Shown one piece after another: positions 1,338 through 6,560 of a stretch of 25,042 bases of DNA; position 1 is the first letter of the stretch; each line of letters starts with the position of its first letter. Source of the DNA: a virus. The notes beneath the pieces were generated by a model. The model saw nothing but the letters and a program-made list of their open reading frames with translations. It was not told the origin of the DNA and searched no databases. A program made the position numbers and the translations under genes. The DNA lies in IMG/VR virus record IMGVR_UViG_3300042294_002490, positions 1-25,042 of that record; one strand, 5' to 3'.

Positions 1338-1545
1338 CCCATGGGATGTCGAAGACATCCTGTCGATGTGTCGGGATGCCGAACACGACGGGATTGATGA
1401 CTACGCCCAGAACTTTGTTGACGACACACGCAATCGCGTGATCCGCTGGGGGTTGGCGATGGCCCTCAGCGAGAAGCAAGAGAACTTTCTGATGAGCGCA
1501 GCGGACAAAGGTCTGCGCGCGCGTCGGTCGAGGGGGAAAACGTGA
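1318..1545 (+). CDS. hypothetical 75-residue protein
   Basis: The only plausible full-length start is TTG 1318, because an in-frame TAG lies at 1300-1302; the site upstream is weak, so translation probably depends on coupling with the overlapping gene before it. The product is acidic in its first half and basic at its C-terminus (Arg/Lys-rich last ten residues). A stretch of the type LSEKQENFL near residues 51-59 resembles a helical motif in several small phage proteins encoded beside replication genes, but no function is known to me. Its TGA overlaps the GTG start of the primase-helicase as GTGA, giving strict coupling. Confidence 0.65.
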   Translation: MRQLKHSPWDVEDILSMCRDAEHDGIDDYAQNFVDDTRNRVIRWGLAMALSEKQENFLMSAADKGLRARRSRGKT

Positions 1546-3524
1546 GCGAAGACGTGTTGCACCAACTACCGTGCAGGCCTGACCGCGAAGCGATGGAGCG
1601 CTTCGTCAGCGAGATCTTCAACACGCTGGGCATGCGTGGCCTTGTCGAGCTGTGCTGGACAAGCGTTCGCGCGCCTCACGCTCTGGAGTTCGCGCGTCAG
1701 TACGATGTCGGTGATCTAGACCAGCTGGTGCAGGACGCGGCGCGCATGAATGCGTCGCCGAACTGCAACGTCTACATCAGCGCTGGCCTGCGCAAGTCAA
1801 ACACATACCCAGGCAAGCGCGCCAAGGACGAGCATGTTCAATCCATCGTCGCGTGCTGGGCTGACTTCGATAAGCCGGGCGCTCTTGAGCGCGCGATAAA
1901 GAAGGCTACCGATCTGGGCATCACGCCAAACATCGTGACCTACACCGGCCACCATCCACACACGCGTGGTCAGATGTGGTGGACGCTCGATGAGCCGTGC
2001 GAGGATTTCGACGTTCACATGCAGATCCAGCGCAAGCTCGCGCTTGAGCTGGGCGGCGACAAGACGGTGATCAACAGATCGCGCGTGATGCGCTTCATCG
2101 GCAGCGTGGCGTGGCCGCTTAAGGCTGAGCGCACGCTGGAGATGACCGGCTTCTATGATGCCGCCACGCGCCAAGCGCCATACACATTGGATGAGCTGAT
2201 CCATTGCTTGCGCCAGTCGAAGAGTGAAGCGCCGCGCAACCCGCTCTACGATTTCAGCACCGCTGAGCCGACGATAGAGACGCAAGATCTGATCGCGTTC
2301 AGCGTTGAGCCGCATCAATTCCACGAGAATGCACGCAAGGCGACAGCACGCCTGATTGCGCAGGGCATGAGCCCTGATGATGTGTACGGTGTGATGGCCG
2401 GTGCGGTGCGTGCTGCTGGCGTCAACGTGCCAGAGCGTCTGATCCAGCTGAAGAACCTCGTTGCGGGCGCGGCGACCAAGTACTCTCCATCAGGGAAAGA
2501 GACCGCCGCGCCCTCATCAGCGCCGGATCCTGGCGCGACTGGTGATCGGGTTAGCCCGTTCATGAGCATCGCGCAACTGCTTGCGCAGCCCGCACCCGAG
2601 TACATCATCGACCAGTTCCTGATCGAGCGCGGCATGTCGGCGATCTTCGGCGCGCCCGGCACGTTCAAGACGTTCATCGCTCTCGATCTGGGGCTCAGCG
2701 TTGCGCACGGGATCCCGTGGCATGGCTTCGCCACCAAGCAACGCAAGGTGCTCTACATCTGCGCCGAAGGCCAATATGGCTTCGGATCTCGAGCCCTAAT
2801 CTGGCAGCAAGAGCGCGCCGCCGGTCGCGACACCGATCAGTTCATGCTGCTGCCGGTGCCGGTGAACTTCCTGCAGCCCGAGGCGGTGGGTAAGCTGCTC
2901 GAGGATATGAAGCTCTTCATCGGCGATGTCGGCCTGATCATCGTTGACACGCTCGCGCGCAATTTCGGGACCGGCGACGAGAACAAGACCCAGGACATGA
3001 ACGCCTTCGTCAAAGGCGTTAGCCGCCTCACCAAGGACGCGATGGTGTTAATCGTCCACCACACCGGCAAGGACGATGGGAAGGACGAGCGCGGATCCAG
3101 CGCCTTCCGTGCCGCGCTCGATGCTGGCTTCAAGCTGCGCCGCGAGCCGGGTTCGGACTACGTCGATTTCATCACGAAGAAGCAGAAGGAGGCCGAGGAG
3201 CACGCCCCGCTCGGGTTCGTCATGGCGACCGCCGAGGCACCGCACCCGCTGACCGGCGAGTTGCTCAGATCGAGGATCCCCACAATCGGCCAGAAATCAT
3301 CGCCCACGTCGATCCGCGAGCCGACCCTCACGCGTGGCCATCTGGCCATCATCAGCGCCCTGCGTGGCTCTGGGAGCGTTGGCGTGTCGGTTCTCGCGCG
3401 TCAGCTAGGAAAGGATCGCGGCAACCTCACGCGCCAGCTGCGCATGCTGGAGGATCGCGGTCTGGTGAAGCAGCACCCGGCTACCGGGTCCTGGGAGCTG
3501 ATCGAGCAGGAGGATCAGGATTAG
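1542..3524 (+). CDS. fused primase and RepA/DnaB-like helicase (replication protein)
   Basis: The start is GTG 1542 after a G-rich site and overlaps the previous stop. The product is 660 residues. The N-terminal part (about 95-230) looks like an archaeo-eukaryotic/RepB-type primase: a DxD pair at Asp108 and Asp110 after a strand, and RFIGS near residues 186-190, where RepB-like primases carry their conserved R-hGS motif. The middle part is a RecA-fold hexameric helicase of RepA type: Walker A GAPGTFKT (370-377), Walker B LIIVD (465-469) and a His-His-Thr-Gly motif (506-509). The last 60 or so residues resemble a winged helix. It is expected to open the origin, unwind DNA and lay primers, acting in the host cytoplasm. 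Direct linkage to the downstream repeat array suggests that array is its cognate origin, as in plasmids that carry rep genes beside iterons. Confidence 0.88.
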   Translation: MSEDVLHQLPCRPDREAMERFVSEIFNTLGMRGLVELCWTSVRAPHALEFARQYDVGDLDQLVQDAARMNASPNCNVYISAGLRKSNTYPGKRAKDEHVQSIVACWADFDKPGALERAIKKATDLGITPNIVTYTGHHPHTRGQMWWTLDEPCEDFDVHMQIQRKLALELGGDKTVINRSRVMRFIGSVAWPLKAERTLEMTGFYDAATRQAPYTLDELIHCLRQSKSEAPRNPLYDFSTAEPTIETQDLIAFSVEPHQFHENARKATARLIAQGMSPDDVYGVMAGAVRAAGVNVPERLIQLKNLVAGAATKYSPSGKETAAPSSAPDPGATGDRVSPFMSIAQLLAQPAPEYIIDQFLIERGMSAIFGAPGTFKTFIALDLGLSVAHGIPWHGFATKQRKVLYICAEGQYGFGSRALIWQQERAAGRDTDQFMLLPVPVNFLQPEAVGKLLEDMKLFIGDVGLIIVDTLARNFGTGDENKTQDMNAFVKGVSRLTKDAMVLIVHHTGKDDGKDERGSSAFRAALDAGFKLRREPGSDYVDFITKKQKEAEEHAPLGFVMATAEAPHPLTGELLRSRIPTIGQKSSPTSIREPTLTRGHLAIISALRGSGSVGVSVLARQLGKDRGNLTRQLRMLEDRGLVKQHPATGSWELIEQEDQD

Positions 3525-3542: not shown

Positions 3543-3599
3543 GCTAAGTCGTTGATTTCAAAGCAATGACAACAAGCGATGACAACAAGCACAACAATG

Positions 3600-3613
3600 G
3601 TGGTAATTACCAC
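3600..3613. promoter_or_regulatory. 14-bp perfect palindrome at centre of repeat array
   Basis: GTGGTAATTACCAC reads the same on both strands. It is flanked by ACAACA on the left (3591-3596) and TGTTGT on the right (3618-3623), so a cruciform with a small internal loop is possible. ATGACAAC pairs point inwards on each side. This is what a dimer-binding operator or an origin dyad looks like; no specific protein family is identified. Confidence 0.6.
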
Positions 3614-3716
3614 ACGGTGTTGTCATTGCGTGTTGTCATTTTTTCTCGAATGATTTCAGGAGGCTAGATGGCAAAAAGACAACAATGACAACAGCAAATG
3701 ACAACGCGGCTATCCC

Positions 3717-3762
3717 GTTGTCATTTTTTCCCTCCCCCCTTTAGGGGGGAGGAAATGACAAC
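3717..3762. other. long GC-capped hairpin formed by two ATGACAAC repeats
   Basis: A 9-bp perfect stem (CCTCCCCCC at 3731-3739, GGGGGGAGG at 3744-3752) closes a TTTA loop. Outside it GTTGTCATTT (3717-3726) pairs with AAATGACAAC (3753-3762), leaving a four-base bulge (3727-3730) on the left. The right arm also holds the GGAGG ribosome-binding site and ATG of a 13-codon ORF, so folding in RNA would hide that start. Possible roles are an origin structure, a translational switch or a transcription pause; there is no U-run after the stem, so it is not a standard terminator. Confidence 0.6.
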
Positions 3763-3792
3763 AGCCCAACAACACGTCAGGAGACTTACCAC

Positions 3793-4746
3793 ATGACCAA
3801 GAGACCCCCAGGATCGCCGATCAAGCCGACTGCTCAGTCGCGCGTGCTGAGCAGTGGACGCAGCCCGATCACACCGGCACGGCGCGTGGCGCTGGCCGAT
3901 GGTGACGCTCGACCGATGACCGATGACGAGGTGCGCTCGGTCGAGGCGGCGTTGGCGGCGCACGGCAGAGCCCCGGTGAACACGGCTGAGGTGCTGGACG
4001 AGATCGATGAGGTTCTGGCGCTTGAGACCGTCGGCACTCCGGCGGCGGTGGTTAGGGCGCATCAGCGCCGCCTCGACCGCGCGATGGCAATCGTGGTCCG
4101 TGACGCCGAAGATGCGCTGCTGAAGGCCGAGAAGGTATTTGAGGCATACGCCTACATCCACGCCAACAAGACGCCGCCCGACAACGCCAAGGCCGAGGCC
4201 AATCACAACCTGATGATGGAGATGCGTCACGCACTGTTCAGCGACGACGCCCCTGCCGACGTGCCTTCGGTTCCTCCATTAAGCGACACACTCGCGCACG
4301 CGCACGCGCGAGCCAGGGACCGCGTCTTGATGGTGCCGGGGAACCGCCGGCTCAACCAGATGCGTGATGATCTCGCAGCAGCTCAGAAGAGCGGGAGCGT
4401 CAGCAACTGGGAGGTGGCGATGATCGAGAGCATGATCGATCTGCGCGATCTGCAGGATGTGATCGACGCGATGACGGCGCTGCAGGACACCATCCGCGAG
4501 AACGTGAAGCTCGCTCTGGCGAACGGCGACAGTAAGACGTTCAAGTGCGCCATCGGTGTAGCGACGCTGGCCAAGGGCGCTGAGACCGTCTCCATCGTGG
4601 ATCCCAAGCTCGTGCCGTCTCAATTTCTGAAGACCGAGATCGACAAGGCCAAGGTGGGTCGCGCCCTCAAAGTGCCGTCGGTCGTGCCGGGCGCTGTGCT
4701 CACCGAGGGCAAACCGTCACTGCGCATCAGCTGGGACGACGAGTGA
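3793..4746 (+). CDS. Gp157-like (Sipho_Gp157) phage protein
   Basis: The ATG at 3793 overlaps the stop of the upstream 13-codon ORF; a CAGGAG site lies about 8 bases before it. The product has 317 residues. The N-terminal 40 or so are basic and Pro/Ser-rich, the centre is helical, and the C-terminal region holds a pattern typical of siphovirus Gp157-family proteins: Val-Asp-Pro-x-Leu-Val-Pro-x-x-Phe, then Lys-rich helix, then VPGAVL and a final strand SLRISW. That family is usually encoded with phage replication and recombination genes; it was linked to phage resistance in Streptococcus, and its biochemistry is not settled. The N-terminal two thirds do not obviously match and make the protein longer than usual (about 160-190 residues), so a fused extra domain is possible. 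Confidence 0.65.
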   Translation: MTKRPPGSPIKPTAQSRVLSSGRSPITPARRVALADGDARPMTDDEVRSVEAALAAHGRAPVNTAEVLDEIDEVLALETVGTPAAVVRAHQRRLDRAMAIVVRDAEDALLKAEKVFEAYAYIHANKTPPDNAKAEANHNLMMEMRHALFSDDAPADVPSVPPLSDTLAHAHARARDRVLMVPGNRRLNQMRDDLAAAQKSGSVSNWEVAMIESMIDLRDLQDVIDAMTALQDTIRENVKLALANGDSKTFKCAIGVATLAKGAETVSIVDPKLVPSQFLKTEIDKAKVGRALKVPSVVPGAVLTEGKPSLRISWDDE

Positions 4747-5387: not shown

Positions 5388-5704
5388 CCAGCATAGACCA
5401 ATCGTTCATCGAGGGGCTCGTTATCGGGGCCAGGGCGCTAGGCGTAGCTGTGCCGTTTGCGGCTGTTGCGCTTTGCATAGTCATCTATCGCGAAGCGCAG
5501 GAGGCTCGCGCAGCGTTGCGGGCAGCTCGTGAACAGGCCGATCAACAAACTCGGGAGCTGACCGACATCGAGTATGCGCTCGATAGCTGCAACATCCCGA
5601 GAAAAGAAGAAGGCCGTCTGGTCATGAGTATTGCGCGCCGCGTGCGCGTTGCTCTGGAGCCGGGCGCGAAGACGCGGGGGCTCTCACAGTGGCCAGCCAT
5701 CTAG
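5384..5704 (+). CDS. small membrane-anchored coiled-coil protein
   Basis: The start chosen is ATG 5384, six bases after AGGAG and overlapping the upstream stop; a longer frame open from 5285 has no site. The 106-residue product has one hydrophobic segment (about 14-35) followed by a charged Ala/Arg/Glu helix (about 36-70) of coiled-coil type and a basic tail. This layout is shared by inner-membrane spanins, some holin partners and superinfection-exclusion proteins. Its location among replication genes and the lack of an overlapping lipoprotein frame argue against a spanin pair. Function is unknown. Confidence 0.65.
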   Translation: MTSIDQSFIEGLVIGARALGVAVPFAAVALCIVIYREAQEARAALRAAREQADQQTRELTDIEYALDSCNIPRKEEGRLVMSIARRVRVALEPGAKTRGLSQWPAI

Positions 5705-6045
5705 AGATGACGACGAAAGAAGCTGCGATGCTCTACCTAAAACAGTTTCGCGGATGGAATATCCCGCCGCCAGACGAAGGCGGTGAGTATTCCATTCTGC
5801 GCTTTGCTGATCGGAGGCAAGAGGCGATGCGCCGCGCTCGCATGGCTGGCTTGAGCTACAGGGAGATAGGCGAAGCGGTCGGCGTGTGCGGGGAGAGGGC
5901 GTCAGTTGTCATCAAAAAAGCCATCGCAGACGGGCAGGATGTGAACACTTACTTTGCGCGCCATCGCGCTGTGACTTGGGATGATGGCGAGGTGATCATC
6001 AGGGCGAACGTGAAGCCAATGTCCAGGCAGGAGTGGTTCCCATGA
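5689..6045 (+). CDS. helix-turn-helix protein
   Basis: The start is GTG 5689 (GCGGGGG 8 bases upstream, overlap of 16 bases with the previous gene) or ATG 5707, which has a poorer site; 118 or 112 residues. The segment around residues 48-80, containing ARMAGLSYREIGEAVGV followed by a basic helix, has the spacing of a helix-turn-helix of sigma region 4/TrfB type. This suggests a DNA-binding regulator, perhaps of early phage transcription. The C-terminal part is a short strand-rich tail. The stop overlaps the start of the resolvase gene as ATGA. Confidence 0.65.
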   Translation: MASHLEMTTKEAAMLYLKQFRGWNIPPPDEGGEYSILRFADRRQEAMRRARMAGLSYREIGEAVGVCGERASVVIKKAIADGQDVNTYFARHRAVTWDDGEVIIRANVKPMSRQEWFP

Positions 6046-6560
6046 TCTACATCGGCATCGATCCCGGCCTCGACGGGGCAATCGCGATCTACGATCCAAC
6101 GCTTGACGAGAGCTATCATCCTGAGAGGCGTCTCTCATTTCACGACATGCCAACGCTGGCGATCACGCGCGGCAAGACAAAGAAGCGCGAGGTTGATGCG
6201 TTTGCGCTGCGCAGTCTGCTTCTAAAGCACGCGCCTCGGCTGGATCGTAGGGTGATCATCGAGCAGTCGGGACCGATGGCGCGCGATGGATCCATGCAGG
6301 CATGGAAGACCGGCTGCGGCTGGGGCATCGTCTACGGCGTTGTCGTCGGTATCGGCATTCCGATCAGCATCGTCACAGTGCAACGCTGGAAGAAGGCAAT
6401 GGGCGCGACCGCCGACAAGGATCTGTCGCGCAAGCTGGCGATGTCGGCGTTCCCCGAACAGGCCGATCACCTCAGCCGCAAGAAGGACGATGGCCGGGCC
6501 GAGGCTGCTTTGATCGCCCTCTACGCGGAAAGGCTTGAACGGGCTCCGATGCCCGGCTAA
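6042..6560 (+). CDS. RuvC-like Holliday junction resolvase
   Basis: The start is ATG 6042, eight bases after AGGAG (6029-6033) and overlapping the previous stop; the earlier GTG at 6033 lies inside the ribosome site. The product is 172 residues, the usual RuvC size. The RNase H-fold acidic residues are visible: Asp7 in IGIDPG, Glu74 in VIIEQ, and the Asp149-Asp150 pair with Glu154 in KKDDGRAEAALIA. It is expected to cut four-way junctions or branched replicative DNA before packaging. It closes the early module: the next gene begins after a 140-bp gap with a hairpin. Confidence 0.88.
   Translation: MIYIGIDPGLDGAIAIYDPTLDESYHPERRLSFHDMPTLAITRGKTKKREVDAFALRSLLLKHAPRLDRRVIIEQSGPMARDGSMQAWKTGCGWGIVYGVVVGIGIPISIVTVQRWKKAMGATADKDLSRKLAMSAFPEQADHLSRKKDDGRAEAALIALYAERLERAPMPG

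Follow-up and report, generated by a model that had tools for sequence, protein, structure and literature searches.

A repeat array behind the RepA-type helicase gene of a virus as the likely replication origin of a proposed self-recruiting initiator

Introduction

The array of short repeats that directly follows the primase-helicase gene of the viral record IMGVR_UViG_3300042294_002490 is interpreted here as a site that acts in cis in replication, and most likely as the origin, in a phage whose helicase is a self-recruiting initiator. We assign this interpretation a probability of about 0.82. Very probably the helicase docks on the repeats with its own DNA-binding tail, and the repeats mark the start of replication, with both the binding and the origin function being inferred. 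Directly observed are the array, its place, the conservation of its position and the co-variation of the repeats with the winged helix of the helicase. A phage origin with iterons after a primase-helicase gene had already been suggested in an earlier note on this DNA and is now the best-supported reading, based on the arrays at the 3' ends of helicase genes and on the co-variation. The window, i.e. the whole stretch of 25,042 bases that was analyzed, is the complete IMG/VR record and a fragment of unknown completeness.

The array in the window

The array fills the 268 bases from the stop of the helicase gene (3524) to the start of the next gene (3793). A recount agreed with the earlier note in finding eight perfect copies of the octamer ATGACAAC at 3566-3762 after the primase-helicase gene, of which five are forward, three are reverse and six form three pairs spaced by 13 bp. 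Repeats 1 and 2 (3566..3573 and 3579..3586, + strand) form the first pair, the inverted repeats 3 and 4 (3619..3626 and 3632..3639, - strand) the second, and repeats 5 and 6 (3685..3692 and 3698..3705, + strand) the third, followed by the inverted repeat 7 (3717..3724, - strand) and by repeat 8 (3755..3762, + strand). About 12 copies are present if one mismatch is allowed. The number is beyond chance, as had been stated, with 9 copies in the window versus a mean of 0.53 and a maximum of 3 in whole-window shuffles, and the octamer is not scattered through the rest of the sequence: the ninth copy, at 5905, is the sole further one in 25 kb.

The 14-bp perfect palindrome reported earlier was recovered as GTGGTAATTACCAC at 3600..3613, in the center of the first hairpin. 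Absent from the earlier note were the nesting of the octamers as inverted repeats and a second, GC-clamped palindrome, CCTCCCCCCTTTAGGGGGGAGG (CCTCCCCCC-TTTA-GGGGGGAGG, 3731..3752). Similar TA-centered, GC-clamped palindromes recur in arrays of different sequence, outside the Enterobacterales, and palindromes with a stem of at least 8 that are not part of the repeats occur in 25% of the arrays versus 0.7% of shuffles. Positions 3560-3650 are predicted to form one long hairpin (z -5.3) and positions 3680-3770 two hairpins (z -6.1), in both cases with an energy well under that of shuffled sequences. Repeats 6 and 7, and likewise repeats 1 and 4, form hairpins followed by T6, which would fit transcription terminators or RNA hairpins built from repeated arms. 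We give this explanation almost no credence: the repeats of other elements are mostly direct copies without a pairing partner, T runs are missing from many arrays, an Rfam scan returned no match, and the co-variation with the protein would be left unexplained.

Tiny reading frames cross positions 3566-3793 and are chained to the next gene via overlapping stops and starts (MTTSDDNK..., MAKRQQ, MTTANDNAAIPLSFFPSPL and MTTAQQHVRRLTT, each closed by a stop codon). The stop of the MTTAQQHVRRLTT frame overlaps the ATG at 3793, and octamers that begin with ATG are possible start codons.

The helicase and the downstream gene

The gene at 1542..3524 (+ strand) encodes a primase-helicase initiator of 660 aa, consisting of an N-terminal region of unassigned fold, a RepA-type AAA_25 helicase and a C-terminal winged helix. 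The ATPase matches AAA_25 (PF13481, E 7.5e-30). RSF1010 RepA (1g8y) was the sole family matched in a PDB profile search with 32 relatives (E 3.3e-10), and the predicted structure of the helicase aligns with 1g8y at a Foldseek TM of 0.73 by target length. By sequence and predicted fold the protein qualifies as a RepA-type AAA_25 helicase; for a hexamer and for unwinding there are no biochemical data. The window helicase, like L032, a RepA-type helicase of Escherichia coli, matches AAA_25 and not D5_N, and the Pri-Rep of the E. coli island EcCICFT073 and L309, a further E. coli satellite, match D5_N. Comparison of the N-terminal region with Pfam matched no family, a RepB relationship of this region was not found, and its putative role as primase has support only from weak PHROG matches.

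The winged helix occupies the C-terminal ~80 residues, with the domain proposed to bind the array at approximately residues 596-655 (3327..3506, + strand). The isolated domain matches MarR, HTH_20 and HTH_5 above the Pfam cut-offs, and AF2 predicts helices at residues 598-610, 615-622 and 626-638 together with wing strands at a pLDDT of ~88-90. The predicted recognition helix (residues 626-638; 3417..3455, + strand) contains Asn628 (3423-3425, + strand), at the position equivalent to the base-predicting residue of enterobacterial relatives described below. The AF2 model of the whole helicase reached a pTM of only 0.48, so its domain arrangement is not to be trusted. The downstream gene (3793..4746, + strand) is Gp157/Gam-like (PF05565, E 5.7e-8; phrog_253).

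Arrays in relatives of the helicase

Relatives of the window helicase carry an array immediately 3' of the gene, with a sequence that differs between elements. The array of the window is kept in the sister contig L004 (97% identical). Directly after the helicase stop of L202, whose helicase is 43% identical to that of the window over its full length, the sequence reads as a ATGACCAC array followed by a Gam-like reading frame, and L006 (46% identical over the part available) has a AACGACAG array. Remoter relatives in phages, plasmids and prophages show TGCGGAAG, AGTGCGGCA, AAAGTGGG, TGTATAAA, CGGTACA, GCGGGACA, GGAACA and others. Of the conservation expected in the earlier note, the position of the array was thus borne out and the octamer sequence was not, as L202 and L006 demonstrate; since the arrays of relatives differ in sequence, a search of these relatives for the octamer would have missed them. 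The exact 13-bp-spaced pattern gave 19 hits in viral contigs, with more than one match only in the sister contig, and a DNA-level search of phages with the window returned weak matches to the helicase only.

Position was scanned in 64 deduplicated loci, after addition of 80 viral loci, using 300-bp windows and defining an array as at least 6 copies of one 7-mer. At offset -100 an array was present in 32 of 64 loci, and at the stop codon in 28 of 63; none of the 64 had one in any scan window starting at least 300 bp before the stop, and in a few it lay up to ~1.8 kb downstream. At least 5 copies of one 7-mer were found in the scanned 3' region of 178 of 234 distinct helicase homologues; this count takes the best window within the region, so the scan of 64 loci is the fairer test. 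About one quarter of the homologues, mycobacteriophage relatives among them, have no array by the test for at least 5 copies of a 7-mer.

Several loci have peculiarities. In L092, L093 and L098 the array lies ~0.3-1 kb downstream of the helicase stop, possibly with an inserted gene between. In the Xenorhabdus loci L230 and L240 long perfect hairpins with stems of 15 and 21 bp follow the array ~220 bp past the helicase stop; a scan of other Xenorhabdus loci found none. Plasmid p1 of Caenibius sp. WL (L313), a circular 'plasmid' of 38 kb with capsid, terminase and DNA-stabilization genes, is a phage-plasmid carrying a RepA-type helicase and a 12-copy TGCGGAAG array.

Co-variation of the repeats with the C-terminal domain

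Among helicases with an ATPase similarity of at least 0.9, the median motif similarity is 0.51 where the C-terminal domains are 20-35% similar, versus 0.99 where the domains are at least 70% similar. If only ATPases with a similarity of at least 0.6 are compared, the motif shows a partial rank correlation of 0.47 with the domain and of 0.23 with the ATPase, which keeps some predictive power. A global Mantel test over all distances did not separate domain and ATPase (partial 0.26 versus 0.31). Motif similarity therefore appears to track the C-terminal domain more than the ATPase among comparable ATPases only. To the extent that co-variation can establish it, the C-terminal domain sets the specificity for the iterons; the binding itself is inferred.

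Temperate phages commonly have dispersed operators, both inverted and direct, and the earlier note had suggested a repressor operator cluster as its alternative. The binder would then be a separate repressor or other regulator, e.g. the HTH protein at 5689. This alternative loses and is considered very unlikely, because the sequence of the repeats tracks the helicase's own winged helix across relatives, in one group down to a single residue; moreover, the arrays lie at the 3' end of the helicase gene, and a promoter scan found no sigma-70-like promoter. As the repeat tracks the winged helix, the most likely binder is the fused domain (approximately residues 596-655) and not the HTH protein at 5689.

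A residue-to-base code in enterobacterial satellites

In the enterobacterial elements the array has the form AAGTGxG, and one residue, located where the recognition helix begins, predicts x throughout the array. His goes with GTGGG in 37 of 37 scored arrays, Asn with GTGAG in 27 of 27, and Ser or Gly with GTGCG in 23 of 23, i.e. there are no contradictions among these four residues in the scored arrays; with Lys, runs of G are found (33 of 34 scored). Another four loci with His or Asn offered too few sites for scoring. In L124 the residue is His441, the recognition helix being a predicted one. The AF2 model of an enterobacterial helicase had an overall pLDDT of 54 and was accordingly used for the C-terminal domain only.

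On a tree built from the ATPase alone, all 7 independent His/Asn changes on supported branches match the G/A change (sign test, p 0.016); counting all branches there are 10 His/Asn contrasts. In five pairs the ATPase stretches are identical, but residue and array are opposite. When the tree is built from the C-terminal domain and the code residue is masked, it shows 7 residue changes and 7 base changes, which argues, though weakly, against a mere shuffling of two old modules; only 3 pairs, all concordant, remain on its supported branches. The domains of L137 and L141 differ by the exchange of His for Asn and one other residue, and their arrays differ by GTGGG versus GTGAG at most sites.

All 7 new E. 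coli genomes fitted the code. In one of them, L320, few sites remain and a transposon sits shortly after the helicase. Another, L321, has an Asn-type helicase and a mixed array of 5 GTGAG and 4 GTGGG sites, possibly caught in the middle of a change of specificity. Part of the RepA-type satellite segment is matched by 1733 of 5426 complete E. coli genomes, and at least 80% of the segment by 550. An extension of the code to the whole superfamily (Ala or Ser with G at the equivalent base) was suggestive but is broken by exceptions, e.g. L006 with Asn; the claim is therefore limited to the enterobacterial group.

Proposed mechanism and origin function

In the proposed mechanism the C-terminal winged helix would bind the ATGACAAC sites on both strands, so that several subunits could assemble on the array and a ring would be formed at the 3' end of the helicase gene. 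The helicase would open the DNA at the hairpin and the AT-rich parts, and the ring would be loaded on the DNA opened beside the array. A primase, perhaps the helicase's own N-terminal part, would then start synthesis; the TA-centered, GC-clamped palindromes may serve as melting or priming sites, which is a guess. Binding, loading, priming and origin firing are inferences without assay data.

Alternatively, the winged helix might bind the array while the true origin lies elsewhere; the array would then act in copy-number control, incompatibility or autoregulation. Phage P4 provides the precedent, with crr and its type 1 repeats beside the alpha gene and a separate cluster at ori, so that the window array could be an accessory cis site; its position just upstream of the next gene would also suit such a role. 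We regard this as improbable, although not negligible. No second cluster of the motif was found in four complete RepA-type elements (Roseobacter phage CRP-822, 1N2-2, Caenibius p1 and a Klebsiella element of 17 kb) or in the window, and the four complete elements, one of them the circular Caenibius phage-plasmid, each have a single cluster adjoining the helicase gene. The window being a fragment, a second cluster cannot be excluded for it. GC skew, which the earlier note had proposed as a check, was uninformative: it is near-monotonic in the window, with a minimum at 345, and near-monotonic or strand-biased in the four complete elements, and is of no use for placing the origin.

Also against a crr-like role stands the E. 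coli island EcCICFT073, in which the replication gene and the iterons just 3' of it drive plasmid replication (PMC6092414); Gram-positive PICIs have the same layout (PMC6092414). An island that fits the description of EcCICFT073 was located in CFT073, where a D5-type replication protein is followed by GGTAGACA repeats. L032 occupies the same slot, between the DUF4222 and SSB genes. Its flanking genes are nearly those of EcCICFT073 (93 of 99 identical residues for DUF4222, 133 of 136 for SSB) and its replication protein shares only ~125 residues, at 62% identity, with that of EcCICFT073. The shared slot thus holds two helicase engines, each with its own array, in a place whose array is a functional origin. 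The cis function was demonstrated in this equivalent slot (PMC6092414), not in a RepA-type element, and for the origin reading of the window array it is an argument by analogy.

Significance

That an initiator helicase can read repeats located behind its own gene is already known from P4, SaPI/PICI and SCCmec. On balance we lean towards the view that phages, phage-plasmids and satellites harbor a large and undescribed class of self-recruiting initiators, the RepA-type helicases with a fused winged helix. In this view the array diverges in step with the recognition helix, following a simple GTGxG code (His or Lys with G, Asn with A, Ser or Gly with C). Text searches of the open literature, which did not cover subscription papers, turned up no account of the residue-to-base code or of arrays of this kind beside RepA-type helicases; one of the four Pri-Rep variants in PMC6092414 could be RepA-type.

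If true, a change of one amino acid goes along with a change of all copies of the repeat in an origin. This would be a natural experiment in which an initiator and its multi-copy array shift specificity together while replication is kept, with the shift resolved to a single residue and base in one group. Private origin 'passwords' would cut the cross-talk between co-resident elements and could help in the escape from origin-directed nucleases such as Odn (PMC8263062). In practice, the origins of many uncharacterized phages and satellites could be predicted by looking just after an AAA_25 helicase gene.

Comparison with known systems

Phage P4 resembles the window in that short repeats, clustered in both orientations, come directly after its primase-helicase gene, alpha; these 8-bp type 1 repeats of crr are bound by the C-terminal winged helix of alpha. 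It differs in its engine, alpha being a D5-like (SF3) helicase whereas the window helicase is of the RepA-type AAA_25, in its second cluster at ori, of which no counterpart was seen in the window, and in its repeat, GGTGAACA. The P4-type repeat was also observed in the E. coli satellite L309, in which a D5-type primase takes up the same slot and 9 copies of GGTGAACA lie directly after the gene (5818-6106), matching its P4-like C-terminal sequence.

The ATPase of the window is a relative of RSF1010 RepA, and the iterons and hairpins of RSF1010, the latter being single-strand initiation sites, are comparable to the repeats and GC-clamped palindromes of the window. The iterons of RSF1010 are bound by a separate protein, RepC, whereas the winged helix of the window is fused to the helicase. 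Measured against RSF1010 with its separate iteron binder RepC and its primase RepB, the window has a winged helix fused to the helicase and an N-terminal region without Pfam match, in an incomplete genome.

In the Vibrio PLE the initiator varies together with the origin, and both are exchanged as one module (PMC8263062), with the origin-directed nuclease Odn as a plausible pressure for the change of the origin (PMC8263062). The PLE RepA is, in contrast, a RepA_N initiator without predicted helicase activity (PMC7145576).

SaPI Rep, PICI Pri-Rep and SCCmec Cch2 resemble the window in layout, being self-loading initiator helicases with iterons directly 3' of their gene (PMC7581432, PMC6092414); for SaPI Rep and Cch2 PMC7581432, citing Ubeda 2007, has the C-terminal domain binding repeats downstream of the protein's own gene. 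RepA-type E. coli islands even occupy the slot of EcCICFT073. These systems use D5/SF3 or DUF927 helicases, whereas the class of the window is RepA-type and its carriers include tailed phages and a phage-plasmid. Of the marks of SaPI Rep, Pri-Rep and P4 alpha, the window lacks the D5/SF3 or DUF927 core, has the iterons directly 3' of the initiator gene and, as judged from co-variation alone, shares the setting of iteron specificity by the C-terminal domain. The window helicase therefore stands outside the P4/SaPI family by its helicase core, though it is proposed to work likewise.
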